DNA of 64,000 bases, from contig NC_135254.1 in NCBI RefSeq assembly GCF_964204865.1, positions 2,423,001-2,487,000 of the forward strand, in the 5' to 3' direction. The position numbers and the translations under genes are program-made. This DNA comes from Styela clava (Eukaryota > Chordata > Ascidiacea > Stolidobranchia > Styelidae). The first letter of the stretch is position 1; every line of letters starts with the position of its first letter. Below are positions 1-64,000 of this stretch, piece after piece. The notes under the pieces are model-generated. The model saw nothing but the letters and a program-made list of their open reading frames with translations. It searched no databases and was not told where the DNA came from.

Positions 1-101
1 ACGTGGAATACGATTCATTGCGTTCACTCTTTTATGTGATACATCGCGAGTTCTTTGCCATCCGATGGCAGAGTGAAGTTGAACAACTTTACAAAAAATA
101 G
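1..101 (+). CDS. Partial edge copy (3' end of exon 2)
   Basis: Only the last 33 codons and the TAG stop (99-101) of an upstream copy are in the window. The frame and residues match copy 1. It is followed by a type A 3' flank (102-472) with the 12-bp AT-rich insertion. Confidence 0.55.
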   Translation, partial: VEYDSLRSLFYVIHREFFAIRWQSEVEQLYKK

Positions 102-322
102 CAGGACCAGGGGGTGGAATATTAAACTATAAACAAAGAGCCGCAGCTACGATACGTACCTTAAACAGGGAATAATGATATTTCCGAATCTTGGCGCTCA
201 TTCTATTGCTCAATCAATGGCAACACAATCTGAATGTGAAACTGCAAACAAGGAATCAATCTAGAGACGGTTGGATAAAGGGCTAACTTGGATAATGGCA
301 AGGCATGTCATGGACTAATATC

Positions 323-340
323 AATAAATAAATTAATAAA
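323..340 (+). promoter_or_regulatory. Type A polyadenylation signal cluster
   Basis: AATAAA occurs three times (323, 327, 335) because of the 12-bp insertion that defines type A flanks. It lies about 220 bp after the stop of the edge copy and about 130 bp before the next TATA box. Inferred to end the transcript of the upstream copy. Confidence 0.5.
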
Positions 341-393
341 TGGATTGTAAGATTGGTCATGAGAAATTTAACACACCCAAACGAGGATCAATA

Positions 394-423
394 CGGCCAC
401 AACTAATGAAAGCAACGTGGCCG
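394..423. repeat. Upstream inverted repeat CGGCCAC-N16-GTGGCCG
   Basis: Perfect 7-bp arms at 394-400 and 417-423, 16 bp apart, centred about 65 bp upstream of the TATA box. It recurs in nearly every unit. Some copies carry one mismatch (GGCCAA near 17,705 and 20,980-class flanks; CGACCAC in the 739-bp units). It could be a protein-binding dyad or a weak terminator hairpin; nothing in the sequence decides between these. Confidence 0.45.
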
Positions 424-470
424 CTCATTGACTTAACTCGTAAGCCAACAAGATATTGGTAGTGAGCAAA

Positions 471-480
471 TATATAAAAG
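471..480 (+). promoter_or_regulatory. TATA box, with TSS predicted near 503
   Basis: TATATAAAAG is a near-consensus TATA box. Counting 30 bp from the T of TATAAAAG reaches A503 in CCACTAG, which fits the first five positions of the initiator consensus YYANWYY. TATA, start site and ATG keep the same spacing in every copy: TATAAAAG lies 166 bp before the intronic ATG. The base after the box varies (GGGATAG, GGCATAG, GGGGTAG) without changing the motif. Confidence 0.7.
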
Positions 481-526
481 GGATAGCGCGAACGCAGTCC
501 CCACTAGCAGAAATTACACGACCGAG

Positions 527-545
527 TTATCCACATTTGGGATAA
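527..545. repeat. 5' leader inverted repeat TTATCC-N7-GGATAA
   Basis: Perfect 6-bp arms with a 7-nt loop, 24-42 nt after the predicted start site. It could form a short leader hairpin. Present in essentially every unit. Confidence 0.4.
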
Positions 546-573
546 TCGCTAGGGTCAATTTAGTCTGGGTGCA

Positions 574-863
574 ATGACTAAACCTCGCCTAGGCAGAACC
601 GCCTTTGTGATCGCGGTTGACTGCCTCGTCAGGTAAGTATGATTTGTGACGATTGGTTACGCATCATGAATGAATGTTCTATGCTAAGTGTTGAGAAGAA
701 CTTCTCAACATTAAAAACGATATGTGCAAAAGTTGCAATTTTAATTGATTCGTCTGTGGGTAACGTGGAATACGATTCATTGCGTTCACTCTTTTATGTG
801 ATACATCGCGAGTTCTTTGCCATCCGATGGCAGAGTGAAGTTGAACAACTTTACAAAAAATAG
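574..863 (+). CDS. Copy 1 (reference): small two-exon gene, 77-aa product, function unknown
   Basis: Exon 1 codes from ATG 574 to 632, the intron is 633-688, and exon 2 runs 689-863 including the TAG stop. The upstream ORF reads MTKPRLGRTAF...VDCLV, and its only stop (TAA 634-636) is made by the donor GTAAGT itself. The first AG after the donor is at 687-688, and splicing there puts exon 2 exactly into the frame of the long downstream ORF (codon 20 becomes AGT, Ser). G at -3 suits initiation. Residues 9-19 are hydrophobic after K3, R5 and R8 but contain D16, so a signal peptide is unlikely. The C-terminal half is rich in aromatic and charged residues and ends LYKK. I recognise no domain. An alternative unspliced product is listed separately. 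A non-coding transcript is possible. Unit length to the next copy is 751 (type B flank). Confidence 0.55.
597..618. repeat. Exon 1 inverted repeat AACCGC-N10-GCGGTT
   Basis: Perfect 6-bp arms inside the exon 1 coding part, directly after the 8-bp palindrome GCCTAGGC (587-594). Copies with GCGGTG, GCGGTC or GCGGGA in place of GCGGTT weaken the right arm. Confidence 0.35.
633..688 (+). other. Putative 56-nt phase-2 intron
   Basis: The donor CAG|GTAAGT is full consensus, and the acceptor GCTAAG| is the first AG downstream, leaving 48 nt free of AG. The pyrimidine tract and branch point are weak, which is the main doubt. Length suits minimal insect introns. Across the array this interval carries changes that would break the unspliced ORF (TGG to TGA in six copies) and ATGAATG/ATGTATG variants, while exon joining stays in frame. 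Confidence 0.55.
639..863 (+). CDS. Alternative unspliced 74-codon ORF of copy 1
   Basis: If the intron is retained, an ATG beginning one base after GTAAGT opens 74 codons (MICDDW...LYKK) that share the last 57 residues with the spliced product. A lies at -3. Six copies have a stop at codon 6 of this frame, so it is not maintained across the array. AGG six bases before the ATG resembles a Shine-Dalgarno site, but the TATA, splice and AATAAA signals argue against a bacterial reading. Confidence 0.3.
   Translation: MICDDWLRIMNECSMLSVEKNFSTLKTICAKVAILIDSSVGNVEYDSLRSLFYVIHREFFAIRWQSEVEQLYKK
690..709. repeat. Perfect 20-nt palindrome at the start of exon 2
   Basis: GTTGAGAAG-AA-CTTCTCAAC has 9-bp perfect arms and begins at the second base of exon 2. 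Copies with K23N (AAG to AAT) carry one arm mismatch. Confidence 0.5.
736..747. repeat. Palindrome CAATT-TT-AATTG in exon 2
   Basis: Perfect 5-bp arms around TT. Unchanged in the copies inspected. Confidence 0.35.
818..832. repeat. Palindrome TGCCATC-C-GATGGCA in exon 2
   Basis: Perfect 7-bp arms around one C. The nonsense change R66* in two copies (CGA to TGA) alters only this central base, leaving both arms intact. Confidence 0.4.
838..851. repeat. Palindrome AAGTTG-AA-CAACTT at the end of exon 2
   Basis: Perfect 6-bp arms, just before the stop codon. The T27I copies have CAGCTT in the right arm, a single mismatch. Confidence 0.4.
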
Positions 864-1085
864 CAAGGACCAGGGGGTGGTATATTAAACTATAAACAAT
901 GAGCCGCAGCTACGATACGTACCTTAAACATGGAATAATGATATTTCCGAATCTTGGCGCTCATTCTATTGCTCAATCAATGGCAACACAATCTGAATGT
1001 GAAACTGCAAACAAGGAATCAATCTAGAGACGGTTGGATAAAGGGATAACTTGGATAATGGCAAGGCATGTCATGGACTAATATC

Positions 1086-1091
1086 AATAAA
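1086..1091 (+). promoter_or_regulatory. Type B polyadenylation signal of copy 1
   Basis: A single AATAAA, 223 bp after the stop codon, followed by GT-containing sequence (GGATTGTAAG). The mature transcript would be roughly 0.55 kb. Linked type B markers in this flank are GTGGTATATT, CAATGAGCC, AAACATGG, GGGATAAC and GAAAGATAAC. Type A has GTGGAATATT, CAAAGAGCC, AAACAGGG, GGGCTAAC and GAAATTTAAC. Confidence 0.5.
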
Positions 1092-1324
1092 TGGATTGTA
1101 AGATTGGTCATGAGAAAGATAACACACCCAAACGAGGATCAATACGGCCACAACTAATGAAAGCAACGTGGCCGCTCATTGACTTAACTCGTAAGCCAAC
1201 AAGATATTGGTAGTGAGCAAATATATAAAAGGGATAGCGCGAACGCAGTCCCCACTAGCAGAAATTACACGACCGAGTTATCCACATTTGGGATAATCGC
1301 TAGGGTCAATTTAGTCTGGGTGCA

Positions 1325-1614
1325 ATGACTAAACCTCGCCTAGGCAGAACCGCCTTTGTGATCGCGGGAGACTGCCTCGTCAGGTAAGTATGATTTGTGA
1401 CGATTGGTTACGCATCATGAATGAATGTTCTATGCTAAGTGTTGAGAAGAACTTCTCAACATTAAAAACGACATGTGCAAAAGTTGCAATTTTAATTGAT
1501 TCGTCTGTGGGTAACGTGGAATACGATTCATTGCGTTCACTCTTTTATGTGATACATCGCGAGTTCTTTGCCATCCGATGGCAGAGTGAAGTTGAACAAC
1601 TTTACAAAAAATAG
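1325..1614 (+). CDS. Copy 2
   Basis: V15G by a two-base change (GTT to GGA) and I31T. Unit 763, type A flank. Confidence 0.5.
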
Positions 1615-2087
1615 CAAGGACCAGGGGGTGGAATATTAAACTATAAACAAAGAGCCGCAGCTACGATACGTACCTTAAACAGGGAATAATGATATTTCCG
1701 AATCTTGGCGCTCATTCTATTGCTCAATCAATGGCAACACAATCTGAATGTGAAACTGCAAACAAGGAATCAATCTAGAGACGGTTGGATAAAGGGCTAA
1801 CTTGGATAATGGCAAGGCATGTCATGGACTAATATCAATAAATAAATTAATAAATGGATTGTAAGATTGGTCATGAGAAATTTAACACACCCAAACGAGG
1901 ATCAATACGGCCACAACTAATGAAAGCAACGTGGCCGCTCATTGACTTAACTCGTAAGCCAACAAGATATTGGTAGTGAGCAAATATATAAAAGGGATAG
2001 CGCGAACGCAGTCCCCACTAGCAGAAATTACACGACCGAGTTATCCACATTTGGGATAATCGCTAGGGTCAATTTAGTCTGGGTGCA

Positions 2088-2377
2088 ATGACTAAACCTC
2101 GTCTAGGCAGAACCGCCTTTGTGATCGCGGTTGACTGCCTCGTCAGGTAAGTATGATTTGTGACGATTGGTTACGCATCATGAATGAATGTTCTATGCTA
2201 AGTGTTGAGAAGAACTTCTCAACATTAAAAACGATATGTGCAAAAGTTGCAATTTTAATTGATTCGTCTGTGGGTAACGTGGAATACGATTCATTGCGTT
2301 CACTCTTTTATGTGATACATCGCGAGTTCTTTGCCATCCGATGGCAGAGTGAAGTTGAACAACTTTACAAAAAATAG
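2088..2377 (+). CDS. Copy 3, followed by a double 3' flank
   Basis: Silent CGC to CGT at R5, shared with copy 19. Unit is 1,082 because a second 3' flank follows. Confidence 0.5.
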
Positions 2378-2713
2378 CAAGGACCAGGGGGTGGAATATT
2401 AAACTATAAACAATGAGCCGCAGCTACGATACGTACCTTAAACAGGGAATAATGATATTTCCGAATCTTGGCGCTCATTCTATTGCTCAATCAATGGCAA
2501 CACAATCTGAATGTGAAACTGCAAACATGGAATCAATCTAGAGACGGTTGGATAAAGGGATAACTTGGATAATGGCAAGGCATGTCAGGGACTAATATCA
2601 ATAAATGGATTGTAAGATTGGTCATGAGAAAGATAACACACCCAAACGAGGATCAATACGGCCACAACTAATGAAAGCAACGTGGCCGCTCATTGACTTA
2701 ACTCGTAAGCCAA

Positions 2714-2730
2714 CAAGGGTGGGGGTATAT
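2714..2730 (+). repeat. Rearrangement junction in the first 1,082-bp unit
   Basis: The sequence jumps from GCCAACAAG, just upstream of a promoter, back to a point after the stop codon (GGTATATTAAAC). This adds 331 bp, skips one TATA box and coding region, and leaves copy 3 with two consecutive 3' flanks, each with AATAAA. The joint lies in a G-rich stretch. Confidence 0.85.
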
Positions 2731-3169
2731 TAAACTATAAACAATGAGCCGCAGCTACGATACGTACCTTAAACATGGAATAATGATATTTCCGAATCTT
2801 GGCGCTCATTCTATTGCTCAATCAATGGCAACACAATCTGAATGTGAAACTGCAAACAAGGAATCAATCTAGAGACGGTTGGATAAAGGGATAACTTGGA
2901 TAATGGCAAGGCATGTCATGGACTAATATCAATAAATGGATTGTAAGATTGGTCATGAGAAAGATAACACACCCAAACGAGGATCAATACGGCCACAACT
3001 AATGAAAGCAACGTGGCCGCTCATTGACTTAACTCGTAAGCCAACAAGATATTGGTAGTGAGCAAATATATAAAAGGGATAGCGCGAACGCAGTCCCCAC
3101 TAGCAGAAATTACACGACCGAGTTATCCACATTTGGGATAATCGCTAGGGTCAATTTAGTCTGGGTGCA

Positions 3170-3459
3170 ATGACTAAACCTCGCCTAGGCAGAACCGCCT
3201 TTGTGATCGCGGTTGACTGCCTCGTCAGGTAAGTATGATTTGTGACGATTGGTTACGCATCATGAATGAATGTTCTATGCTAAGTGTTGAGAAGAACTTC
3301 TCAATATTAAAAACGATATGTGCAAAAGTTGCAATTTTAATTGATTCGTCTGTGGGTAACGTGGAATACGATTCATTGCGTTCACTCTTTTATGTGATAC
3401 ATCGCGAGTTCTTTGCCATCCGATGGCAGAGTGAAGTTGAACAGCTTTACAAAAAATAG
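3170..3459 (+). CDS. Copy 4
   Basis: T27I with silent CAA to CAG near the C-terminus. First member of a recurring T27I then K23N pair. Unit 751; the flank has the private change GTAACATTGG. Confidence 0.5.
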
Positions 3460-3920
3460 CAAGGACCAGGGGGTGGTATATTAAACTATAAACAATGAGC
3501 CGCAGCTACGATACGTACCTTAAACATGGAATAATGATATTTCCGAATCTTGGCGCTCATTCTATTGCTCAATCAATGGCAACACAATCTGAATGTGAAA
3601 CTGCAAACAAGGAATCAATCTAGAGACGGTTGGATAAAGGGATAACTTGGATAATGGCAAGGCATGTCATGGACTAATATCAATAAATGGATTGTAACAT
3701 TGGTCATGAGAAAGATAACACACCCAAACGAGGATCAATACGGCCACAACTAATGAAAGCAACGTGGCCGCTCATTGACTCAACTCGTAAGCCAACAAGA
3801 TATTGGTAGTGAGCAAATATATAAAAGGCATAGCGCGAACGCAGTCCCCACTAGCAGAAATTACACGACCGAGTTATCCACATTTGGGATAATCGCTAGG
3901 GTCAATTTAGTCTGGGTGCA

Positions 3921-4210
3921 ATGACTAAACCTCGCCTAGGCAGAACCGCCTTTGTGATCGCGGTTGACTGCCTCGTCAGGTAAGTATGATTTGTGACGAT
4001 TGGTTACGCATCATGAATGAATGTTCTATGCTAAGTGTTGAGAATAACTTCTCAACATTAAAAACGATATGTGCAAAAGTTGCAATTTTAATTGATTCGT
4101 CTGTGGGTAACGTGGAATACGATTCATTGCGTTCACTCTTTTATGTGATACATCGCGAGTTCTTTGCCATCCGATGGCAGAGTGAAGTTGAACAACTTTA
4201 CAAAAAATAG
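3921..4210 (+). CDS. Copy 5
   Basis: K23N. Unit 762, type A, with private AATAAATC and AACCCGTAAG in the flank. Confidence 0.5.
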
Positions 4211-4682
4211 CAGGACCAGGGGGTGGAATATTAAACTATAAACAAAGAGCCGCAGTTACGATACGTACCTTAAACAGGGAATAATGATATTTCCGAATCT
4301 TGGCGCTCATTCTATTGCTCAATCAATGGCAACACAATCTGAATGTGAAACTGCAAACAAGGAATAAATCTAGAGACGGTTGGATAAAGGGCTAACTTGG
4401 ATAATGGCAAGGCATGTCATGGACTAATATCAATAAATAAATTAATAAATGGATTGTAAGATTGGTCATGAGAAATTTAACACACCCAAACGAGGATCAA
4501 TACGGCCACAACTAATGAAAGCAACGTGGCCGCTCATTGACTTAACCCGTAAGCCAACAGGATATTGGTAGTGAGCAAATATATAAAAGGGATAGCGCGA
4601 ACGCAGTCCCCACTAGCAGAAATTACACGACCGAGTTATCCACATTTGGGATAATCGGTAGGGTCAATTTAGTCTGGGTGCA

Positions 4683-5011
4683 ATGACTAAACCTCGCCTA
4701 GGCAGAACCGCCTTTGTGATCGCGGTTGACTGCCTCGTCAGGTAAGTATGATTTGTGACGATTGGTTACGCATCATGAATGAATGTTCTATGCTAAGTGT
4801 TGAGAAGAACTTCTCAACATTAAAAACGACATGTGCAAAAGTTGCAATTTTAATTGATTCGTCTGTGGGTAACGTGGAATACGATTCATTGCGTTCACTC
4901 TTTTATGTGATACATCGCGAGTTCTTTGCCATCCGATGGCAGAGTGAAGTTGAACAACTTTACAAAAAATACCAAGGACCAGGGGGTGGAATATTAAACT
5001 ATAAACAATGA
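4683..5011 (+). CDS. Copy 6, stop codon lost
   Basis: I31T. The TAG stop is TAC, so the frame runs 13 codons into the 3' flank (QGPGGG...) to a TGA at 5009-5011. Copy 28 is its duplicate. Unit 751. Confidence 0.5.
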
Positions 5012-5433
5012 GCCGCAGCTACGATAAGTACCTTAAACAGGGAATAATGATATTTCCGAATCTTGGCGCTCATTCTATTGCTCAATCAATGGCAACACAA
5101 TCTGAATGTGAAACTGCAAACAAGGAATCAATCTAGAGACGGTTGGATAAAGGGATAACTTGGATAATGGCAAGGCATGTCATGGACTAATATCAATAAA
5201 TGGATTGTAAGATTGGTCATGAGAAAGATAACACACCCAAACGAGGATCAATACGGCCACAACTAATGAAAGCAACGTGGCCGCTCATTGACTTAACTCG
5301 TAAGCCAACAAGATATTGGTAGTGAGCAAATATATAAAAGGGATAGCGCGAACGCAGTCCCCACTAGCAGAAATTACACGACCGAGTTATCCACATTTGG
5401 GATAATCGCTAGGGTCAATTTAGTCTGGGTGCA

Positions 5434-5723
5434 ATGACTAAACCTCGCCTAGGCAGAACCGCCTTTGTGAACGCGGTTGACTGCCTCGTCAGGTAAGTAT
5501 GATTTGTGACGATTGGTTACGCATCATGAATGAATGTTCTATGCTAAGTGTTGAGAAGAACTTCTCAACATTAAAAACGATATGTGCAAAAGTTGCAATT
5601 TTAATTGATTCGTCTGTGGGTAACGTGGAATACGATTCATTGCGTTCACTCTTTTATGTGATACATCGCGAGTTCTTTGCCATCCGATGGCAGAGTGAAG
5701 TTGAACAACTTTACAAAAAATAG
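5434..5723 (+). CDS. Copy 7
   Basis: I13N (ATC to AAC) in exon 1. Unit 751, type B with TCTTAGCGC in the flank. Confidence 0.5.
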
Positions 5724-6184
5724 CAAGGACCAGGGGGTGGTATATTAAACTATAAACAATGAGCCGCAGCTACGATACGTACCTTAAACATGGAATAATG
5801 ATATTTCCGAATCTTAGCGCTCATTCTATTGCTCAATCAATGGCAACACAATCTGAATGTGAAACTGCAAACAAGGAATCAATCTAGAGACGGTTGGATA
5901 AAGGGATAACTTGGATAATGGCAAGGCATGTCATGGACTAATATCAATAAATGGATTGTAAGATTGGTCATGAGAAAGATAACACACCCAAACGAGGATC
6001 AATACGGCCACAACTAATGAAAGCAACGTGGCCGCTCATTGACTCAACTCGTAAGCCAACAAGATATTGGTAGTGAGCAAATATATAAAAGGGATAGCGC
6101 GAACGCAGTCCCCACTAGCAGAAATTACACGACCGAGTTATCCACATTTGGGATAATCGCTAGGGTCAATTTAGTCTGGGTGCA

Positions 6185-6474
6185 ATGACTAAACCTCGCC
6201 TAGGCAGAACCGCCTTTGTGATCGCGGTGGACTGCCTCGTCAGGTAAGTATGATTTGTGACGATTGGTTACGCATCATGAATGAATGTTCTATGCTAAGT
6301 GTTGAGAAGAACTTCTCAACATTAAAAACGATATGTGCAAAAGTTGCAATTTTAATTGATTCGTCTGTGGGTAACGTGGAATACGATTCATTGCGTTCAC
6401 TCTTTTATGTGATACATCGCGAGTTCTTTGCCATCCGATGGCAGAGTGAAGTTGAACAACTTTACAAAAAATAG
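6185..6474 (+). CDS. Copy 8
   Basis: Only a silent V15 change (GTT to GTG). Unit 762, type A with GGGAGTAATG in the flank. Confidence 0.5.
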
Positions 6475-6946
6475 CAGGACCAGGGGGTGGAATATTAAAC
6501 TATAAACAAAGAGCCGCAGCTACGATACGTACCTTAAACAGGGAGTAATGATATTTCCGAATCTTGGCGCTCATTCTATTGCTCAATCAATGGCAACACA
6601 ATCTGAATGTGAAACTGCAAACAAGGAATCAATCTAGAGACGGTTGGATAAAGGGCTAACTTGGATAATGGCAAGGCATGTCATGGACTAATATCAATAA
6701 ATAAATTAATAAATGGATTGTAAGATTGGTCATGAGAAATTTAACACACCCAAACGAGGATCAATACGGCCACAACTAATGAAAGCAACGTGGCCGCTCA
6801 TTGACTTAACTCGTAAGCCAACAAGATATTGGTAGTGAGCAAATATATAAAAGGGGTAGCGCGAACGCAGTCCCCACTAACAGAAATTACACGACCGAGT
6901 TATCCACATTTGGGATAATCGCTAGGGTCAATTTAGTCTGGGTGCA

Positions 6947-7236
6947 ATGACTAAACCTCGCCTAGGCAGAACCGCCTTTGTGATCGCGGTTGACTGCCTC
7001 GTCAGGTAAGTATGATTTGTGACGATTGGTTACGCATCATGAATGAATGTTCTATGCTAAGTGTTGAGAAGAACTTCTCAACATTAAAAACGACATGTGC
7101 AAAAGTTGCAATTTTAATTGATTCGTCTGTGGGTAACGTGGAATACGATTCATTGCGTTCACTCTTTTATGTGATACATCGCGAGTTCTTTGCCATCCGA
7201 TGGCAGAGTGAAGTTGAACAACTTTACAAAAAATAG
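6947..7236 (+). CDS. Copy 9
   Basis: I31T. The promoter has AAAAGGGGTAGC after the TATA box, shared with copy 15. Unit 763. Confidence 0.5.
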
Positions 7237-7709
7237 CAAGGACCAGGGGGTGGAATATTAAACTATAAACAAAGAGCCGCAGCTACGATACGTACCTTAA
7301 ACAGGGAATAATGATATTTCCGAATCTTGGCGCTCATTCTATTGCTCAATCAATGGCAACACAATCTGAATGTGAAACTGCAAACAAGGAATCAATCTAG
7401 AGACGGTTGGATAAAGGGCTAACTTGGATAATGGCAAGGCATGTCATGGACTAATATCAATAAATAAATTAATAAATGGATTGTAAGATTGGTCATGAGA
7501 AATTTAACACACCCAAACGAGGATCAATACGGCCACAACTAATGAAAGCAACGTGGCCGCTCATTGACTTAACTCGTAAGCCAACAAGATATTGGTAGTG
7601 AGCAAATATATAAAAGGGATAGCGCGAACGCAGTCCCCACTAGCAGAAATTACACGACCGAGTTATCCACATTTGGGATAATCGCTAGGGTCAATTTAGT
7701 CTGGGTGCA

Positions 7710-7999
7710 ATGACTAAACCTCGCCTAGGCAGAACCGCCTTTGTGATCGCGGTTGACTGCCTCGTCAGGTAAGTATGATTTGTGACGATTGGTTACGCAT
7801 CATGAATGAATGTTCTATGCTAAGTGTTGAGAAGAACTTCTCAACATTAAAAACGATATGTGCAAAAGTTGCAATTTTAATTGATTCGTCTGTGGGTAAC
7901 GTGGAATACGATTCATTGCGTTCACTCTTTTATGTGATACATCGCGAGTTCTTTGCCATCCGATGGCAGAGTGAAGTTGAACAACTTTACAAAAAATAG
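7710..7999 (+). CDS. Copy 10
   Basis: Protein identical to copy 1. Unit 762, type A. Confidence 0.5.
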
Positions 8000-8471
8000 C
8001 AGGACCAGGGGGTGGAATATTAAACTATAAACAAAGAGCCGCAGCTACGATACGTACCTTAAACAGGGAATAATGATATTTCCGAATCTTGGCGCTCATT
8101 CTATTGCTCAATCAATGGCAACACAATCTGAATGTGAAACTGCAAACAAGGAATCAATCTAGAGACGGTTGGATAAAGGGCTAACTTGGATAATGGCAAG
8201 GCATGTCATGGACTAATATCAATAAATAAATTAATAAATGGATTGTAAGATTGGTCATGAGAAATTTAACACACCCAAACGAGGATCAATACGGCCACAA
8301 CTAATGAAAGCAACGTGGCCGCTCATTGACTTAACTCGTAAGCCAACAAGATATTGGTAGTGAGCAAATATATAAAAGGGATAGCGCGAACGCAGTCCCC
8401 ACTAGCAGAAATTACACGACCGAGTTATCCACATTTGGGATAATCGCTAGGGTCAATTTAGTCTGGGTGCA

Positions 8472-8761
8472 ATGACTAAACCTCGCCTAGGCAGAACCGC
8501 CTTTGTGAACGCGGTTGACTGCCTCGTCAGGTAAGTATGATTTGTGACGATTGGTTACGCATCATGAATGAATGTTCTATGCTAAGTGTTGAGAAGAACT
8601 TCTCAACATTAAAAACGATATGTGCAAAAGTTGCAATTTTAATTGATTCGTCTGTGGGTAACGTGGAATACGATTCATTGCGTTCACTCTTTTATGTGAT
8701 ACATCGCGAGTTCTTTGCCATCCGATGGCAGAGTGAAGTTGAACAACTTTACAAAAAATAG
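8472..8761 (+). CDS. Copy 11
   Basis: I13N. Unit 751 with the TCTTAGCGC flank shared with copies 7 and 13. Confidence 0.5.
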
Positions 8762-9222
8762 CAAGGACCAGGGGGTGGTATATTAAACTATAAACAATGA
8801 GCCGCAGCTACGATACGTACCTTAAACATGGAATAATGATATTTCCGAATCTTAGCGCTCATTCTATTGCTCAATCAATGGCAACACAATCTGAATGTGA
8901 AACTGCAAACAAGGAATCAATCTAGAGACGGTTGGATAAAGGGATAACTTGGATAATGGCAAGGCATGTCATGGACTAATATCAATAAATGGATTGTAAG
9001 ATTGGTCATGAGAAAGATAACACACCCAAACGAGGATCAATACGGCCACAACTAATGAAAGCAACGTGGCCGCTCATTGACTCAACTCGTAAGCCAACAA
9101 GATATTGGTAGTGAGCAAATATATAAAAGGGATAGCGCGAACGCAGTCCCCACTAGCAGAAATTACACGACCGAGTTATCCACATTTGGGATAATCGCTA
9201 GGGTCAATTTAGTCTGGGTGCA

Positions 9223-9512
9223 ATGACTAAACCTCGCCTAGGCAGAACCGCCTTTGTGATCGCGGTGGACTGCCTCGTCAGGTAAGTATGATTTGTGACG
9301 ATTGGTTACGCATCATGAATGAATGTTCTATGCTAAGTGTTGAGAAGAACTTCTCAACATTAAAAACGATATGTGCAAAAGTTGCAATTTTAATTGATTC
9401 GTCTGTGGGTAACGTGGAATACGATTCATTGCGTTCACTCTTTTATGTGATACATCGCGAGTTCTTTGCCATCCGATGGCAGAGTGAAGTTGAACAACTT
9501 TACAAAAAATAG
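9223..9512 (+). CDS. Copy 12
   Basis: Silent GTG at V15. Unit 750: the flank starts as type A (CAAAGAGCC, GGGAGTAATG) and switches to type B before GGGATAAC. Confidence 0.5.
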
Positions 9513-9972
9513 CAGGACCAGGGGGTGGAATATTAAACTATAAACAAAGAGCCGCAGCTACGATACGTACCTTAAACAGGGAGTAATGATATTTCCGAAT
9601 CTTGGCGCTCATTCTATTGCTCAATCAATGGCAACACAATCTGAATGTGAAACTGCAAACAAGGAATCAATCTAGAGACGGTTGGATAAAGGGATAACTT
9701 GGATAATGGCAAGGCATGTCATGGACTAATATCAATAAATGGATTGTAAGATTGGTCATGAGAAAGATAACACACCCAAACGAGGATCAATACGGCCACA
9801 ACTAATGAAAGCAACGTGGCCGCTCATTGACTTAACTCGTAAGCCAACAAGATATTGGTAGTGAGCAAATATATAAAAGGGATAGCGCGAACGCAGTCCC
9901 CACTAGCAGAAATTACACGACCGAGTTATCCACATTTGGGATAATCGCTAGGGTCAATTTAGTCTGGGTGCA

Positions 9973-10262
9973 ATGACTAAACCTCGCCTAGGCAGAACCG
10001 CCTTTGTGAACGCGGTTGACTGCCTCGTCAGGTAAGTATGATTTGTGACGATTGGTTACGCATCATGAATGAATGTTCTATGCTAAGTGTTGAGAAGAAC
10101 TTCTCAACATTAAAAACGATATGTGCAAAAGTTGCAATTTTAATTGATTCGTCTGTGGGTAACGTGGAATACGATTCATTGCGTTCACTCTTTTATGTGA
10201 TACATCGCGAGTTCTTTGCCATCCGATGGCAGAGTGAAGTTGAACAACTTTACAAAAAATAG
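9973..10262 (+). CDS. Copy 13
   Basis: I13N. Unit 751. Duplicate of copy 7. Confidence 0.5.
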
Positions 10263-10723
10263 CAAGGACCAGGGGGTGGTATATTAAACTATAAACAATG
10301 AGCCGCAGCTACGATACGTACCTTAAACATGGAATAATGATATTTCCGAATCTTAGCGCTCATTCTATTGCTCAATCAATGGCAACACAATCTGAATGTG
10401 AAACTGCAAACAAGGAATCAATCTAGAGACGGTTGGATAAAGGGATAACTTGGATAATGGCAAGGCATGTCATGGACTAATATCAATAAATGGATTGTAA
10501 GATTGGTCATGAGAAAGATAACACACCCAAACGAGGATCAATACGGCCACAACTAATGAAAGCAACGTGGCCGCTCATTGACTCAACTCGTAAGCCAACA
10601 AGATATTGGTAGTGAGCAAATATATAAAAGGGATAGCGCGAACGCAGTCCCCACTAGCAGAAATTACACGACCGAGTTATCCACATTTGGGATAATCGCT
10701 AGGGTCAATTTAGTCTGGGTGCA

Positions 10724-14814: not shown

Positions 14815-15150
14815 CAAGGACCAGGGGGTGGAATATTAAACTATAAACAATGAGCCGCAGCTACGATACGTACCTTAAACAGGGAATAATGATATTTCCG
14901 AATCTTGGCGCTCATTCTATTGCTCAATCAATGGCAACACAATCTGAATGTGAAACTGCAAACATGGAATCAATCTAGAGACGGTTGGATAAAGGGATAA
15001 CTTGGATAATGGCAAGGCATGTCATGGACTAATATCAATAAATGGATTGTAAGATTGGTCATGAGAAAGATAACACACCCAAACGAGGATCAATACGGCC
15101 ACAACTAATGAAAGCAACGTGGCCGCTCATTGACTTAACTCGTAAGCCAA

Positions 15151-15167
15151 CAAGGGTGGGGGTATAT
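15151..15167 (+). repeat. Rearrangement junction in the second 1,082-bp unit
   Basis: Same junction as at 2,714, base for base and exactly 12,437 bp away. One rearrangement was therefore later copied. Confidence 0.85.
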
Positions 15168-15606
15168 TAAACTATAAACAATGAGCCGCAGCTACGATAC
15201 GTACCTTAAACATGGAATAATGATATTTCCGAATCTTGGCGCTCATTCTATTGCTCAATCAATGGCAACACAATCTGAATGTGAAACTGCAAACAAGGAA
15301 TCAATCTAGAGACGGTTGGATAAAGGGATAACTTGGATAATGGCAAGGCATGTCATGGACTAATATCAATAAATGGATTGTAAGATTGGTCATGAGAAAG
15401 ATAACACACCCAAACGAGGATCAATACGGCCACAACTAATGAAAGCAACGTGGCCGCTCATTGACTTAACTCGTAAGCCAACAAGATATTGGTAGTGAGC
15501 AAATATATAAAAGGGATAGCGCGAACGCAGTCCCCACTAGCAGAAATTACACGACCGAGTTATCCACATTTGGGATAATCGCTAGGGTCAATTTAGTCTG
15601 GGTGCA

Positions 15607-17882: not shown

Positions 17883-18172
17883 ATGACTAAACCTCGCCTA
17901 GGCAGAACCGCCTTTGAGATCGCGGTTGACTGCCTCGTCAGGTAAGTATGATTTGTGACGATTGGTTACGCATCATGAATGAATGTTCTATGCTAAGTGT
18001 TGAGAAGAACTTCTCAACATTAAAAACGACATGTGCAAAAGTTGCAATTTTAATTGATTCGTCTGTGGGTAACGTACAATACGATTCATTGCGTTCACTC
18101 TTTTATGTGATACATCGCGAGTTCTTTGCCATCCGATGGCAGAGTGAAGTTGAACAACTTTACAAAAAATAG
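17883..18172 (+). CDS. Copy 23
   Basis: V12E (GTG to GAG), I31T and E47Q. Unit 763. Confidence 0.5.
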
Positions 18173-20159: not shown

Positions 20160-20449
20160 ATGACTAAACCTCGCCTAGGCAGAACCGCCTTTGTGATCGC
20201 GGTTGACTGCCTCGTCAGGTAAGTATGATTTGTGACGATTGGTTACGCATCATGAATGAATGTTCTATGCTAAGTGTTGAGAAGAACTTCTCAATATTAA
20301 AAACGATATGTGCAAAAGTTGCAATTTTAATTGATTCGTCTGTGGGTAACGTGGAATACGATTCATTGCGTTCACTCTTTTATGTGATACATCGCGAGTT
20401 CTTTGCCATCCGATGGCAGAGTGAAGTTGAACAGCTTTACAAAAAATAG
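20160..20449 (+). CDS. Copy 26
   Basis: T27I. Unit 751 with GTAACATTGG, as after copy 4. Confidence 0.5.
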
Positions 20450-45012: not shown

Positions 45013-45118
45013 AAATATATAAAAGGGATAGCGCGAACGCAGTCCCCACTAGCAGAAATTACACGACCGAGTTATCCACATTTGGGATAATCGCTAGGGT
45101 CAATTTAGTCTGGGTGCA

Positions 45119-53702: not shown

Positions 53703-54174
53703 CAGGACCAGGGGGTGGAATAATAAACTATAAACAAAGAGCCGCAGCTACGATACGTACCTTAAACAGGGAATAATGATATTTCCGAATCTTGGCGCTC
53801 ATTCTATTGCTCAATCAATGGCAACACAATCTGAATGTGAAACTGCAAACAAGGAATCAATCTAGAGACGGTTGGATAAAGGGCTAACTTGGATAATGGC
53901 AAGGCATGTCATGGACTAATATCAATAAATAAATTAATAAATAGATTGTAAGATTGGTCATGAGAAATTTAACACACCCAAACGAGGATCAATACGGCCA
54001 CAACTAATGAAAGCAACGTGGCCGCTCATTGACTTAACCCGTAAGCCAACAGGATATTGGTAGGGAGCAAATATATAAAAGGGATAGCGCGAACGCAGTC
54101 CCCACTAGCAGAAATTACACGACCGAGTTATCCACATTTGGGATAATCGCTAGGGTCAATTTAGTCTGGGTGCA

Positions 54175-54464
54175 ATGACTAAACCTCGCCTAGGCAGAAC
54201 CGCCTTTGTGATCGCGGTTGACTGCCTCGTCAGGTAAGTATGATTTGTGACGATTGGTTACGCATCATGAATGAATGTTCTATGCTAAGTGTTGAGAAGA
54301 ACTTCTCAACATTAAAAACGATATGTGCAAAAGTTGCAATTTTAATTGATTCGTCTGTGGGTAACGTGGAATACGATTCATTGCGTTCACTCTTTTATGT
54401 GATACATCGCGAGTTCTTTGCCATCCGATGGCAGAGTGAAGTTGAACAACTTTACAAAAAATAG
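54175..54464 (+). CDS. Copy 71
   Basis: Protein identical to copy 1. Unit 751. Confidence 0.5.
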
Positions 54465-54925
54465 CAAGGACCAGGGGGTGGAATATTAAACTATAAACAA
54501 TGAGCCGCAGCTACGATACGTACCTTAAACATGGAATAATGATATTTCCGAATCTTGGCGCTCATTCTATTGCTCAATCAATGGCAACACAATCTGAATG
54601 TGAAACTGCAAACAAGGAATCAATCTAGAGACGGTTGGATAAAGGGATAACTTGGATAATGGCAAGGCATGTCATGGACTAATATCAATAAATGGATTGT
54701 AAGATTGGTCATGAGAAAGATAACACACCCAAACGAGGATCAATACGGCCACAACTAATGAAAGCAACGTGGCCGCTCATTGACTTAACTCGTAAGCCAA
54801 CAAGATATTGGTAGTGAGCAAATATATAAAAGGGATAGCGCGAACGCAGTCCCCACTAGCAGAAATTACACGACCGAGTTATCCACATTTGGGATAATCG
54901 CTAGGGTCAATTTAGTCTGGGTGCA

Positions 54926-55215
54926 ATGACTAAACCTCGCCTAGGCAGAACCGCCTTTGTGCTCGCGGTTGACTGCCTCGTCAGGTAAGTATGATTTGTG
55001 ACGATTGGTTACGCATCATGAATGAATGTTCTATGCTAAGTGTTGAGAAGAACTTCTCAACATTAAAAACGATATGTGCAAAAGTTGCAATTTTAATTGA
55101 TTCGTCTGTGGGTAACGTGGAATACGATTCATTGCGTTCACTCTTTTATGTGATACATCGCGAGTTCTTTGCCATCCGATGGCAGAGTGAAGTTGAACAA
55201 CTTTACAAAAAATAG
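54926..55215 (+). CDS. Copy 72
   Basis: I13L (ATC to CTC). Unit 762; flank has GAGTCGCAG and AATAGATTG. Confidence 0.5.
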
Positions 55216-55687
55216 CAGGACCAGGGGGTGGAATATTAAACTATAAACAAAGAGTCGCAGCTACGATACGTACCTTAAACAGGGAATAATGATATTTCCG
55301 AATCTTGGCGCTCATTCTATTGCTCAATCAATGGCAACACAATCTGAATGTGAAACTGCAAACAAGGAATCAATCTAGAGACGGTTGGATAAAGGGCTAA
55401 CTTGGATAATGGCAAGGCATGTCATGGACTAATATCAATAAATAAATTAATAAATAGATTGTAAGATTGGTCATGAGAAATTTAACACACCCAAACGAGG
55501 ATCAATACGGCCACAACTAATGAAAGCAACGTGGCCGCTCATTGACTTAACCCGTAAGCTAACAGGATATTGGTAGTGAGCAAATATATAAAAGGGATAG
55601 CGCGAACGCAGTCCCCACTAGCAGAAATTACACGACCGAGTTATCCACATTTGGGATAATCGCTAGGGTCAATTTAGTCTGGGTGCA

Positions 55688-55977
55688 ATGACTAAACCTC
55701 GCCTAGGCAGAACCGCCTTTGTGAACGCGGTTGACTGCCTCGTCAGGTAAGTATGATTTGTGACGATTGGTTACGCATCATGAATGAATGTTCTATGCTA
55801 AGTGTTGAGAAGAACTTCTCAACATTAAAAACGATATGTGCAAAAGTTGCAATTTTAATTGATTCGTCTGTGGGTAACGTGGAATACGATTCATTGCGTT
55901 CACTCTTTTATGTGATACATCGCGAGTTCTTTGCCATCCGATGGCAGAGTGAAGTTGAACAACTTTACAAAAAATAG
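55688..55977 (+). CDS. Copy 73
   Basis: I13N. Unit 751, A-to-B recombinant flank. Confidence 0.5.
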
Positions 55978-56438
55978 CAAGGACCAGGGGGTGGAATATT
56001 AAACTATAAACAAAGAGCCGCAGTTACGATACGTACCTTAAACAGGGAATAATGATATTTCCGAATCTTGGCGCTCATTCTATTGCTCAATCAATGGCAA
56101 CACAATCTGAATGTGAAACTGCAAACAAGGAATAAATCTAGAGACGGTTGGATAAAGGGCTAACTTGGATAATGGCAAGGCATGTCATGGACTAATATCA
56201 ATAAATGGATTGTAAGATTGGTCATGAGAAAGATAACACACCCAAACGAGGATCAATACGGCCACAACTAATGAAAGCAACGTGGCCGCTCATTGACTTA
56301 ACTCGTAAGCCAACAAGATATTGGTAGTGAGCAAATATATAAAAGGGATAGCGCGAACGCAGTCCCCACTAGCAGAAATTACACGACCGAGTTATCCACA
56401 TTTGGGATAATCGCTAGGGTCAATTTAGTCTGGGTGCA

Positions 56439-56728
56439 ATGACTAAACCTCGCCTAGGCAGAACCGCCTTTGTGATCGCGGTTGACTGCCTCGTCAGGTA
56501 AGTATGATTTGTGACGATTGGTTACGCATCATGAATGAATGTTCTATGCTAAGTGTTGAGAAGAACTTCTCAACATTAAAAACGATATGTGCAAAAGTTG
56601 CAATTTTAATTGATTCGTCTGTGGGTAACGTGGAATACGATTCATTGCGTTCACTCTTTTATGTGATACATCGCGAGTTCTTTGCCATCCGATGGCAGAG
56701 TGAAGTTGAACAACTTTACAAAAAATAG
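56439..56728 (+). CDS. Copy 74
   Basis: Protein identical to copy 1. Unit 739. Confidence 0.5.
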
Positions 56729-57177
56729 CAGAACCAGGGGGTGGAATATTAAACTATAAACAAAGAGCCGCAGCTACGATACGTACCTTAAACAGGGAAT
56801 AATGATATTTCCGAATCTTGGCGCTCATTCTATTGCTCAATCAATGGCAACACAATCTGAATGTGAAACTGCAAACAAGGAATCAATCTAGAGACGGTTG
56901 GATAAAGGGCTAACTTGGATAATGGCAAGGCATGTCATGGACTAATATCAATAAATAAATTATTAAATGGATTGTAAGATTGGTCATGAGAAATTTAACA
57001 CACCCAAACGAGGATCAATACGACCACAACTAATGAAAGCAACGTGGCCGCTCATTGACTTAACGCTGAGCAAATATATAAAAGGGATAGCGCGAACGCA
57101 GTCCCCACTAGCAGAAATTACACGACCGAGTTATCCACATTTGGGATAATCGCTAGGGTCAATTTAGTCTGGGTGCA

Positions 57178-57467
57178 ATGACTAAACCTCGCCTAGGCAG
57201 AACCGCCTTTGTGATCGCGGTTGACTGCCTCGTCAGGTAAGTATGATTTGTGACGATTGGTTACGCATCATGAATGAATGTTCTATGCTAAGTGTTGAGA
57301 AGAACTTCTCAACATTAAAAACGATATGTGCAAAAGTTGCAATTTTAATTGATTCGTCTGTGGGTAACGTGGAATACGATTCATTGCGTTCACTCTTTTA
57401 TGTGATACATCGCGAGTTCTTTGCCATCCGATGGCAGAGTGAAGTTGAACAACTTTACAAAAAATAG
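57178..57467 (+). CDS. Copy 75
   Basis: Protein identical to copy 1. Unit 762 with GAGTCGCAG, as copy 72. Confidence 0.5.
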
Positions 57468-57939
57468 CAGGACCAGGGGGTGGAATATTAAACTATAAAC
57501 AAAGAGTCGCAGCTACGATACGTACCTTAAACAGGGAATAATGATATTTCCGAATCTTGGCGCTCATTCTATTGCTCAATCAATGGCAACACAATCTGAA
57601 TGTGAAACTGCAAACAAGGAATCAATCTAGAGACGGTTGGATAAAGGGCTAACTTGGATAATGGCAAGGCATGTCATGGACTAATATCAATAAATAAATT
57701 AATAAATAGATTGTAAGATTGGTCATGAGAAATTTAACACACCCAAACGAGGATCAATACGGCCACAACTAATGAAAGCAACGTGGCCGCTCATTGACTT
57801 AACCCGTAAGCTAACAGGATATTGGTAGTGAGCAAATATATAAAAGGGATAGCGCGAACGCAGTCCCCACTAGCAGAAATTACACGACCGAGTTATCCAC
57901 ATTTGGGATAATCGCTAGGGTCAATTTAGTCTGGGTGCA

Positions 57940-58229
57940 ATGACTAAACCTCGCCTAGGCAGAACCGCCTTTGTGAACGCGGTTGACTGCCTCGTCAGGT
58001 AAGTATGATTTGTGACGATTGGTTACGCATCATGAATGAATGTTCTATGCTAAGTGTTGAGAAGAACTTCTCAACATTAAAAACGATATGTGCAAAAGTT
58101 GCAATTTTAATTGATTCGTCTGTGGGTAACGTGGAATACGATTCATTGCGTTCACTCTTTTATGTGATACATCGCGAGTTCTTTGCCATCCGATGGCAGA
58201 GTGAAGTTGAACAACTTTACAAAAAATAG
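57940..58229 (+). CDS. Copy 76
   Basis: I13N. Unit 751. Duplicate of copy 73. Confidence 0.5.
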
Positions 58230-58690
58230 CAAGGACCAGGGGGTGGAATATTAAACTATAAACAAAGAGCCGCAGTTACGATACGTACCTTAAACAGGGA
58301 ATAATGATATTTCCGAATCTTGGCGCTCATTCTATTGCTCAATCAATGGCAACACAATCTGAATGTGAAACTGCAAACAAGGAATAAATCTAGAGACGGT
58401 TGGATAAAGGGCTAACTTGGATAATGGCAAGGCATGTCATGGACTAATATCAATAAATGGATTGTAAGATTGGTCATGAGAAAGATAACACACCCAAACG
58501 AGGATCAATACGGCCACAACTAATGAAAGCAACGTGGCCGCTCATTGACTTAACTCGTAAGCCAACAAGATATTGGTAGTGAGCAAATATATAAAAGGGA
58601 TAGCGCGAACGCAGTCCCCACTAGCAGAAATTACACGACCGAGTTATCCACATTTGGGATAATCGCTAGGGTCAATTTAGTCTGGGTGCA

Positions 58691-58980
58691 ATGACTAAAC
58701 CTCGCCTAGGCAGAACCGCCTTTGTGATCGCGGTTGACTGCCTCGTCAGGTAAGTATGATTTGTGACGATTGGTTACGCATCATGAATGAATGTTCTATG
58801 CTAAGTGTTGAGAAGAACTTCTCAACATTAAAAACGATATGTGCAAAAGTTGCAATTTTAATTGATTCGTCTGTGGGTAACGTGGAATACGATTCATTGC
58901 GTTCACTCTTTTATGTGATACATCGCGAGTTCTTTGCCATCCGATGGCAGAGTGAAGTTGAACAACTTTACAAAAAATAG
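58691..58980 (+). CDS. Copy 77
   Basis: Protein identical to copy 1. Unit 739. Duplicate of copy 74. Confidence 0.5.
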
Positions 58981-59429
58981 CAGAACCAGGGGGTGGAATA
59001 TTAAACTATAAACAAAGAGCCGCAGCTACGATACGTACCTTAAACAGGGAATAATGATATTTCCGAATCTTGGCGCTCATTCTATTGCTCAATCAATGGC
59101 AACACAATCTGAATGTGAAACTGCAAACAAGGAATCAATCTAGAGACGGTTGGATAAAGGGCTAACTTGGATAATGGCAAGGCATGTCATGGACTAATAT
59201 CAATAAATAAATTATTAAATGGATTGTAAGATTGGTCATGAGAAATTTAACACACCCAAACGAGGATCAATACGACCACAACTAATGAAAGCAACGTGGC
59301 CGCTCATTGACTTAACGCTGAGCAAATATATAAAAGGGATAGCGCGAACGCAGTCCCCACTAGCAGAAATTACACGACCGAGTTATCCACATTTGGGATA
59401 ATCGCTAGGGTCAATTTAGTCTGGGTGCA

Positions 59430-59758
59430 ATGACTAAACCTCGCCTAGGCAGAACCGCCTTTGTGATCGCGGTTGACTGCCTCGTCAGGTAAGTATGATT
59501 TGTGACGATTGGTTACGCATCATGAATGAATGTTCTATGCTAAGTGTTGAGAAGAACTTCTCAACATTAAAAACGATATGTGCAAAAGTTGCAATTTTAA
59601 TTGATTCGTCTGTGGGTAACGTGGAATACGATTCATTGCGTTCACTCTTTTATGTGATACATCGCGAGTTCTTTGCCATCCGATGGCAGAGTGAAGTTGA
59701 ACAACTTTACAAAAAAAAGCAAGGACCAGGGGGTGGTATATTAAACTATAAACAATGA
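59430..59758 (+). CDS. Copy 78, stop codon lost
   Basis: TAG to AAG, as copy 69. Unit 751; short AATAAATGG but type A GAAATTTAAC, a second kind of hybrid flank. Confidence 0.5.
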
Positions 59759-60180
59759 GCCGCAGCTACGATACGTACCTTAAACATGGAATAATGATAT
59801 TTCCGAATCTTGGCGCTCATTCTATTGCTCAATCAATGGCAACACAATCTGAATGTGAAACTGCAAACAAGGAATCAATCTAGAGACGGTTGGATAAGGG
59901 GATAACTTGGATAATGGCAAGGCATGTCATGGACTAATATCAATAAATGGATTGTAAGATTGGTCATGAGAAATTTAACACACCCAAACGAGGATCAATA
60001 CGGCCACAACTAATGAAAGCAACGTGGCCGCTCATTGACTTAACTCGTAAGCCAACAAGATATTGGTAGTGAGCAAATATATAAAAGGGATAGCGCGAAC
60101 GCAGTCCCCACTAGCAGAAATTACACGACCGAGTTATCCACATTTGGGATAATCGCTAGGGTCAATTTAGTCTGGGTGCA

Positions 60181-60470
60181 ATGACTAAGCCTCGCCTAGG
60201 CAGAACCGCCATTGTGATCGCGGTTGACTGCCTCGTCAGGTAAGTATGATTTGTGACGATTGGTTACGCATCATGAATGAATGTTCTATGCTAAGTGTTG
60301 AGAAGAACTTCTCAACATTAAAAACGATATGTGCAAAAGTTGCAATTTTAATTGATTCGTCTGTGGGTAACGTGGAATACGATTCATTGCGTTCACTCTT
60401 TTATGTGATACATCGCGAGTTCTTTGCCATCCGATGGCAGAGTGAAGTTGAACAACTTTACAAAAAATAG
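60181..60470 (+). CDS. Copy 79
   Basis: F11I (TTT to ATT), silent AAG at K3. Unit 762. Confidence 0.5.
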
Positions 60471-60942
60471 CAGGACCAGGGGGTGGAATATTAAACTATA
60501 AACAAAGAGTCGCAGCTACGATACGTACCTTAAACAGGGAATAATGATATTTCCGAATCTTGGCGCTCATTCTATTGCTCAATCAATGGCAACACAATCT
60601 GAATGTGAAACTGCAAACAAGGAATCAATCTAGAGACGGTTGGATAAAGGGCTAACTTGGATAATGGCAAGGCATGTCATGGACTAATATCAATAAATAA
60701 ATTAATAAATAGATTGTAAGATTGGTCATGAGAAATTTAACACACCCAAACGAGGATCAATACGGCCACAACTAATGAAAGCAACGTGGCCGCTCATTGA
60801 CTTAACCCGTAAGCCAACAGGATATTGGTAGTGAGCAAATATATAAAAGGGATAGCGCGAACGCAGTCCCCACTAGCAGAAATTACACGACCGAGTTATC
60901 CACATTTGGGATAATCGCTAGGGTCAATTTAGTCTGGGTGCA

Positions 60943-61232
60943 ATGACTAAACCTCGCCTAGGCAGAACCGCCTTTGTGAACGCGGTTGACTGCCTCGTCA
61001 GGTAAGTATGATTTGTGACGATTGGTTACGCATCATGAATGAATGTTCTATGCTAAGTGTTGAGAAGAACTTCTCAACATTAAAAACGATATGTGCAAAA
61101 GTTGCAATTTTAATTGATTCGTCTGTGGGTAACGTGGAATACGATTCATTGCGTTCACTCTTTTATGTGATACATCGCGAGTTCTTTGCCATCCGATGGC
61201 AGAGTGAAGTTGAACAACTTTACAAAAAATAG
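60943..61232 (+). CDS. Copy 80
   Basis: I13N. Unit 751. Duplicate of copies 73 and 76. Confidence 0.5.
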
Positions 61233-61693
61233 CAAGGACCAGGGGGTGGAATATTAAACTATAAACAAAGAGCCGCAGTTACGATACGTACCTTAAACAG
61301 GGAATAATGATATTTCCGAATCTTGGCGCTCATTCTATTGCTCAATCAATGGCAACACAATCTGAATGTGAAACTGCAAACAAGGAATAAATCTAGAGAC
61401 GGTTGGATAAAGGGCTAACTTGGATAATGGCAAGGCATGTCATGGACTAATATCAATAAATGGATTGTAAGATTGGTCATGAGAAAGATAACACACCCAA
61501 ACGAGGATCAATACGGCCACAACTAATGAAAGCAACGTGGCCGCTCATTGACTTAACTCGTAAGCCAACAAGATATTGGTAGTGAGCAAATATATAAAAG
61601 GGATAGCGCGAACGCAGTCCCCACTAGCAGAAATTACACGACCGAGTTATCCACATTTGGGATAATCGCTAGGGTCAATTTAGTCTGGGTGCA

Positions 61694-61983
61694 ATGACTA
61701 AACCTCGCCTAGGCAGAACCGCCTTTGTGATCGCGGTTGACTGCCTCGTCAGGTAAGTATGATTTGTGACGATTGGTTACGCATCATGAATGAATGTTCT
61801 ATGCTAAGTGTTGAGAAGAACTTCTCAACATTAAAAACGATATGTGCAAAAGTTGCAATTTTAATTGATTCGTCTGTGGGTAACGTGGAATACGATTCAT
61901 TGCGTTCACTCTTTTATGTGATACATCGCGAGTTCTTTGCCATCCGATGGCAGAGTGAAGTTGAACAACTTTACAAAAAATAG
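61694..61983 (+). CDS. Copy 81
   Basis: Protein identical to copy 1. Unit 739. Confidence 0.5.
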
Positions 61984-62432
61984 CAGAACCAGGGGGTGGA
62001 ATATTAAACTATAAACAAAGAGCCGCAGCTACGATACGTACCTTAAACAGGGAATAATGATATTTCCGAATCTTGGCGCTCATTCTATTGCTCAATCAAT
62101 GGCAACACAATCTGAATGTGAAACTGCAAACAAGGAATCAATCTAGAGACGGTTGGATAAAGGGCTAACTTGGATAATGGCAAGGCATGTCATGGACTAA
62201 TATCAATAAATAAATTATTAAATGGATTGTAAGATTGGTCATGAGAAATTTAACACACCCAAACGAGGATCAATACGACCACAACTAATGAAAGCAACGT
62301 GGCCGCTCATTGACTTAACGCTGAGCAAATATATAAAAGGGATAGCGCGAACGCAGTCCCCACTAGCAGAAATTACACGACCGAGTTATCCACATTTGGG
62401 ATAATCGCTAGGGTCAATTTAGTCTGGGTGCA

Positions 62433-62761
62433 ATGACTAAACCTCGCCTAGGCAGAACCGCCTTTGTGATCGCGGTTGACTGCCTCGTCAGGTAAGTATG
62501 ATTTGTGACGATTGGTTACGCATCATGAATGAATGTTCTATGCTAAGTGTTGAGAAGAACTTCTCAACATTAAAAACGATATGTGCAAAAGTTGCAATTT
62601 TAATTGATTCGTCTGTGGGTAACGTGGAATACGATTCATTGCGTTCACTCTTTTATGTGATACATCGCGAGTTCTTTGCCATCCGATGGCAGAGTGAAGT
62701 TGAACAACTTTACAAAAAAAAGCAAGGACCAGGGGGTGGTATATTAAACTATAAACAATGA
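62433..62761 (+). CDS. Copy 82, stop codon lost
   Basis: TAG to AAG, as copies 69 and 78. Unit 751. Confidence 0.5.
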
Positions 62762-63183
62762 GCCGCAGCTACGATACGTACCTTAAACATGGAATAATGA
62801 TATTTCCGAATCTTGGCGCTCATTCTATTGCTCAATCAATGGCAACACAATCTGAATGTGAAACTGCAAACAAGGAATCAATCTAGAGACGGTTGGATAA
62901 GGGGATAACTTGGATAATGGCAAGGCATGTCATGGACTAATATCAATAAATGGATTGTAAGATTGGTCATGAGAAAGATAACACACCCAAACGAGGATCA
63001 ATACGGCCACAACTAATGAAAGCAACGTGGCCGCTCATTGACTTAACTCGTAAGCCAACAAGATATTGGTAGTGAGCAAATATATAAAAGGGATAGCGCG
63101 AACGCAGTCCCCACTAGCAGAAATTACACGACCGAGTTATCCACATTTGGGATAATCGCTAGGGTCAATTTAGTCTGGGTGCA

Positions 63184-63473
63184 ATGACTAAGCCTCGCCT
63201 AGGCAGAACCGCCATTGTGATCGCGGTTGACTGCCTCGTCAGGTAAGTATGATTTGTGACGATTGGTTACGCATCATGAATGAATGTTCTATGCTAAGTG
63301 TTGAGAAGAACTTCTCAACATTAAAAACGATATGTGCAAAAGTTGCAATTTTAATTGATTCGTCTGTGGGTAACGTGGAATACGATTCATTGCGTTCACT
63401 CTTTTATGTGATACATCGCGAGTTCTTTGCCATCCGATGGCAGAGTGAAGTTGAACAACTTTACAAAAAATAG
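63184..63473 (+). CDS. Copy 83
   Basis: F11I, as copy 79. The type A flank has the private changes of copy 70. Unit 762 to the next, cut-off copy. Confidence 0.5.
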
Positions 63474-63945
63474 CAGGACCAGGGGGTGGAATAATAAACT
63501 ATAAACAAAGAGCCGCAGCTACGATACGTACCTTAAACAGGGAATAATGATATTTCCGAATCTTGGCGCTCATTCTATTGCTCAATCAATGGCAACACAA
63601 TCTGAATGTGAAACTGCAAACAAGGAATCAATCTAGAGACGGTTGGATAAAGGGCTAACTTGGATAATGGCAAGGCATGTCATGGACTAATATCAATAAA
63701 TAAATTAATAAATAGATTGTAAGATTGGTCATGAGAAATTTAACACACCCAAACGAGGATCAATACGGCCACAACTAATGAAAGCAACGTGGCCGCTCAT
63801 TGACTTAACCCGTAAGCCAACAGGATATTGGTAGGGAGCAAATATATAAAAGGGATAGCGCGAACGCAGTCCCCACTAGCAGAAATTACACGACCGAGTT
63901 ATCCACATTTGGGATAATCGCTAGGGTCAATTTAGTCTGGGTGCA

Positions 63946-64000
63946 ATGACTAAACCTCGCCTAGGCAGAACCGCCTTTGTGATCGCGGTTGACTGCCTCG
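63946..64000 (+). CDS. Partial edge copy (exon 1 only)
   Basis: TATA box at 63,843-63,852, ATG at 63,946 and the first 18 codons. The donor would fall four bases past the window edge. Confidence 0.5.
   Translation, partial: MTKPRLGRTAFVIAVDCL

Follow-up and report, generated by a model that had tools for sequence, protein, structure and literature searches.

What does a unit of about 0.75 kb encode when it is repeated without interruption over 64 kb? A first-pass annotation of the window, by which we mean the whole 64-kb stretch of DNA that was analyzed (positions 1 to 64000), had read each unit as a small plus-strand gene of unknown function with a TATA box, an initiator, a splice donor and an AATAAA signal. 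The analysis described here leads to a different answer. With a probability of about 0.88, the window is the interior of a tandem array of U1 snRNA genes that supplies U1, and these genes lie on the opposite strand from the one that had been annotated.

Organization of the array

The window is filled end to end by a head-to-tail tandem array, and both ends of the array lie beyond it. The DNA is eukaryotic and probably comes from an animal. Copies were counted by anchoring on exact occurrences of CAGGTAAGTAT, which is how the U1 5' end reads on the plus strand. This gave 83 exactly anchored copies, plus one copy truncated by the window end. Nucleotide 1 of U1 in the 83 whole copies falls at window positions 640, 1391, 2154, 3236 and onward to 62499 and 63250. 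The 82 intervals between the anchors measure 751 bp (34 intervals), 763 bp (19), 762 bp (17), 739 bp (5), 750 bp (3), 758 bp (2) and 1082 bp (2). The span of 739–763 bp covers 80 of the 82 and bears out the earlier description of a ~0.75-kb tandem repeat across 64 kb. All genes have the same orientation (minus strand) and are separated by similar spacers throughout the 82 intervals, which is the arrangement of a tandem U1 snDNA array.

The U1 gene takes up 163 nt of each unit, and the spacer is ~576–600 bp long in nearly all of them. A 12-bp spacer segment is missing in 37 of 82 units, and its absence accounts for most of the difference between the 751- and 763-bp lengths. Distinct sequences number 58 among the 82 complete units. 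Pairwise differences between units average 1.3% and reach a maximum of 2.8% (gaps left out). With 84 U1 matches and this low mean difference, the proposal that more than 80 near-identical copies had been amplified together holds. Feature coordinates are collected in Table 1.

Table 1. Features of the window, with positions counted from its first nucleotide
Feature	Position	Strand	Remarks
Tandem U1 snRNA gene array	1..64000	-	84 Rfam U1 matches, all minus
First-unit U1 snRNA gene, commonest sequence	478..640	-	RF00003, 143.9 bits, model 1-166 of 166
Last U1 copy, 5' end lost at window end	63850..64000	-	RF00003, 118.2 bits, model 13-166
U1 5' end AUACUUACCUG, complementary to 5' splice sites	630..640	-	Reverse complement is the 'splice donor' of the first-pass annotation
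'ORF' of the first-pass annotation, 20 codons plus stop	574..636	+	Antisense U1; no Pfam match
'TATA box' of the first-pass annotation, TATATAAAAG	471..480	+	Same offset in 81/83 units
TTTT run at U1 3' end	476-479	-	Minus-strand reading of TATATAAAAG
Perfect inverted repeat, 10-nt arms, 2 apart	689..710	-	-49 to -70 before U1
331-bp spacer duplication, first 1082-bp unit	2396..3048	.	U1 starts 2154 and 3236
331-bp spacer duplication, second 1082-bp unit	14833..15485	.	U1 starts 14591 and 15673

Identification of the repeated gene as U1

Rfam covariance models were used to identify the RNA encoded by the units. The U1 spliceosomal RNA (RF00003) was matched in 84 of 84 units, once per unit and always on the minus strand. 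The 84 matches score 118.2–143.9 bits against a gathering score of 69.5. Each of the 83 whole copies has an E-value of 4e-33 or lower, and the truncated copy has one of 3.4e-29. The whole copies span the model end to end, and Rfam detects no whole U1 copy in the 64-kb window beyond the 83 anchored ones. The single compact gene that had been proposed for each unit is therefore present, with one U1 match in every unit, but its function is not unknown because Rfam names U1 in all 84. No RNA family other than U1 reaches its Rfam gathering score anywhere in the window. When positions 1–1600 were searched at E up to 5, the sole extra match was DGCR5 (E = 1.7), which was taken as chance, and ARAGORN found no tRNA. 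Most simply, the array would be a source of U1.

Structure and motifs of the U1 copies

The commonest U1 sequence is shared by 22 of the 83 whole copies, all identical to the first-unit gene. This sequence forms 43 of the 45 scored Rfam base pairs, and one further pair is gapped. Both sides have changed relative to the Rfam consensus in 19 of the 43 formed pairs, which indicates that the stems were kept through compensating change. Such changes are what one would expect to see in a U1 under selection. The commonest copy also folds better than 199 of 200 shuffled sequences (z = −2.46).

All 83 whole copies have an exact U1 5' end, AUACUUACCUG, but the count was itself anchored on this sequence. 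Loop II keeps its motif AUUGCACC unaltered in the 83 whole copies, and the loop I motif GAUCACAAAG is found in 73 of them, with loop I reading AAAG where the Rfam consensus has GAAG. Judged on sequence, loops I and II both carry their candidate protein-binding motifs, as a member of the U1 family would. A 16-letter stretch of loop I, GCGATCACAAAGGCGG, occurs in 73 of the 83 copies. The same stretch begins an RT-qPCR primer for C. elegans H27M09.6, which the text of that report suggests is one of the C. elegans U1 genes (PMC12636506). The shared stretch does not establish a nematode origin for the window.

The Sm-site motif is AAUUUCUG in 69 of the 83 copies and departs from the Rfam consensus AAUUUgUG. 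Like the loop I difference, this departure weighs against reading the array as a supply of U1. The change A127G within the motif (AGUUUCUG-type) is carried by 14 of the 83. The A127G copies have their minus-strand U1 starts at 20226, 26279, 27793, 28556, 30070, 33855, 37641, 38404, 39918, 40681, 45948 and 46711; those starting at 17949 and 34618 combine A127G with a second change.

Origin of the plus-strand landmarks

Antisense U1 accounts for the plus-strand landmarks. What the first-pass annotation took for a spliced, polyadenylated plus-strand gene is a unit holding a minus-strand structured non-coding RNA. The motifs that it listed do occur on the plus strand at fixed spacing, but they were not borne out as the parts of a gene. 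The units are copies of one another, so the fixed spacing is one observation inherited ~84 times and not a set of independent ones. The consensus splice donor CAGGTAAGTAT turns out to be the U1 5' end AUACUUACCUG in reverse complement and is found as such in 83 units. The 20-codon ORF is antisense U1 and ends at the TAA within GTAAG; the ATG frame recurs with its first 11 letters exact in 77 of 83 units. The initiator placed near 503 falls inside U1. The supposed TATA box, whose offset is the same in 81 of 83 units, overlaps and then follows the U1 3' end. AATAAA is found at its main offset in 73 of 83 units; it belongs to the spacer and lies near or partly in the 12-bp variable segment. It precedes the TATA motif by 136 bp.

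Protein genes in the unit were also considered. Six short frames were compared with Pfam, namely the 20-codon frame plus five taken from the 14 of at least 30 residues that were listed for positions 1–1600; with an E-value limit of 1, none of the six had a match. Protein genes were rejected on the basis of these frames, none of which corresponds to a recognizable protein. The longest of the 14 listed frames is a 74-codon plus-strand frame upstream of U1 (639–863 and again 1390–1614); it has no Pfam match and is probably due to chance.

U1 RNA is not polyadenylated, and its cap is of the trimethylguanosine type. Poly(A) RNA-seq or 3'-end data tied to AATAAA could therefore miss active genes of this kind.

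Variation within the array

Purifying selection within the array would leave U1 with a smaller share of variable sites than the spacer has, and this was not found among the units of the window. Because the units are related by duplication, the p-values that compare U1 with the spacer are rough: the gene varies at 23 of its 163 sites and the spacer at 58 of 600, which makes U1 if anything the more variable of the two (Fisher p = 0.11), and the minor-variant counts show no significant difference (Mann-Whitney p = 0.31). Diversity is 0.0118 in U1 and 0.0142 in the spacer. Common variants (those in at least 14 copies) make up 1 of the 23 variable sites in U1 versus 13 of the 58 in the spacer (p = 0.06); counting one site of doubtful alignment low makes the spacer figure 12 of 58 (p = 0.10). 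The scarcity of common variants in U1 hints weakly that variants in the gene fail to spread. A single altered copy among more than 80 should cost little, so weak constraint per copy would be expected.

Of the 83 copies, 51 are altered in loop I, in the Sm motif or at a scored base pair. The remaining 32 have no such change; 22 of these are identical to the commonest U1 and 10 differ from it only outside loop I, the Sm motif and the scored pairs. U1 is no less variable than the spacer, yet the commonest copy is a well-formed U1.

Alternative readings of the array

The main rival reading holds that the array is a U1-derived satellite whose copies are mostly non-functional passengers, with the working U1 genes located elsewhere in the genome. 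In its favor, the gene is no less variable than its spacer within the array, 51 of the 83 copies are altered in one or more of three key parts (loop I, the Sm motif and the scored pairs), and 14 carry A127G in the Sm motif. Against it, one well-formed U1 sequence recurs unchanged in 22 of the 83 copies, and in 10 more the differences leave the key parts untouched; compensating pair changes are kept in the consensus, and none of the 83 whole copies has an altered 5' end or loop II motif. The rarity of common variants in U1 (1/23) relative to the spacer (13/58) argues in the same direction, as a hint only. We consider the satellite reading unlikely. The array might instead be a reservoir of U1 isoforms, in which linked loop I and Sm-motif variants, such as the Sm-motif change of 14 copies, would be expressed and yield U1 particles that bind proteins differently, or would form a pool from which gene conversion could replace the working sequence. 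This is a speculative proposal to which we give a low probability.

The first-pass model, a small plus-strand gene of unknown function with a TATA promoter, splicing and polyadenylation, draws on the motifs found on that strand at fixed spacing, but repetition alone gives fixed spacing. The donor, the initiator and the frame all fall within antisense U1, and the frame has only 20 codons and is without a Pfam match. The model is extremely improbable. A tandem array that supplies U1 remains the preferred reading.

Relation to known U1 repeats

Tandem or clustered U1 genes are already known, and this array is another instance. It consists of a known RNA gene in tandem and is essentially ordinary. 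ClatSat13-761 of the tapeworm Caryophyllaeus laticeps was first described as a putative satellite and then recognized as a U1 snDNA repeat (PMC12274263). It is, like the array described here, tandem and U1-bearing, with a unit of nearly equal length (761 bp by its name). The two repeats were compared by primers: the two published ClatSat13-761 primers have no match in the window, where the best sites have 8 and 7 mismatches of 20. Xenopus assemblies contain U1 clusters of ~11–35 copies per chromosome (PMC10361878). These clusters resemble the present array in grouping many U1 genes on one chromosome, whereas here 84 copies occur in 64 kb and continue past the window. The histone repeat of Hydractinia has a 5,998-bp unit with histone, U1, U2, 5S and tRNA genes (PMC5011920). 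U1 is amplified within a tandem repeat there as it is here; the Hydractinia unit holds histone, 5S, U2 and tRNA genes besides, whereas U1 is the only family at the Rfam gathering score in this window. In Echinococcus multilocularis the U1 genes are used as a microsatellite marker (PMC5527041, PMC12714974), and the Echinococcus U1-locus primers have no match in the window. An exact U1 loop II pattern had no hit in a set of viral contigs (viral_contigs), nor did a degenerate U1 5'-end pattern in a set of genome contigs (genome_contigs); the two sets consist of viruses and prokaryotes, where hits were hardly likely. Positions 1–1600 matched none of the plasmids searched.

A supposed new gene family is in this case a known gene read on the wrong strand. 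The result suggests a general check for genome scans, namely that a consensus splice donor occupying one fixed place in each repeat may in fact be a U1 gene seen from the complementary strand. A fully assembled array of this kind could also help in studying altered copies beside intact ones in a multicopy RNA gene.

Proposed function and maintenance of the array

Established knowledge of U1 suggests how the array would work. Each minus-strand U1 gene would have its own upstream snRNA promoter and be transcribed individually, with RNA polymerase II as the probable enzyme, and the RNA would be trimmed at its 3' end. It would then join U1-70K, U1-A, U1-C and the Sm proteins and pair with splice donors through its 5' end. 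The array would in this way provide U1 in quantity. Unequal crossing-over and gene conversion would keep the copies alike, and unequal exchange would also make the array grow.

The array was compared with itself at shifts of 1–59 units. Self-similarity is closest at a shift of 16 units, where 2.05% of alignment columns differ, versus 2.70% at the next-best shift (gaps counted in both). The 16-unit similarity and the direct 331-bp duplications in the spacers of the two 1082-bp units are signs of segmental duplication within the array.

Flanking elements

The TTTT run at the U1 3' end would also allow a polymerase III stop, which is the less likely alternative. On the 5' side, the PSE lies near −49 to −70 in other animals. 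The perfect inverted repeat upstream of U1 occupies this interval and is a candidate, and only a candidate, for a PSE-like promoter element. The repeat varies at −58 in 10 of 82 units and at −69 in 8 of 82.
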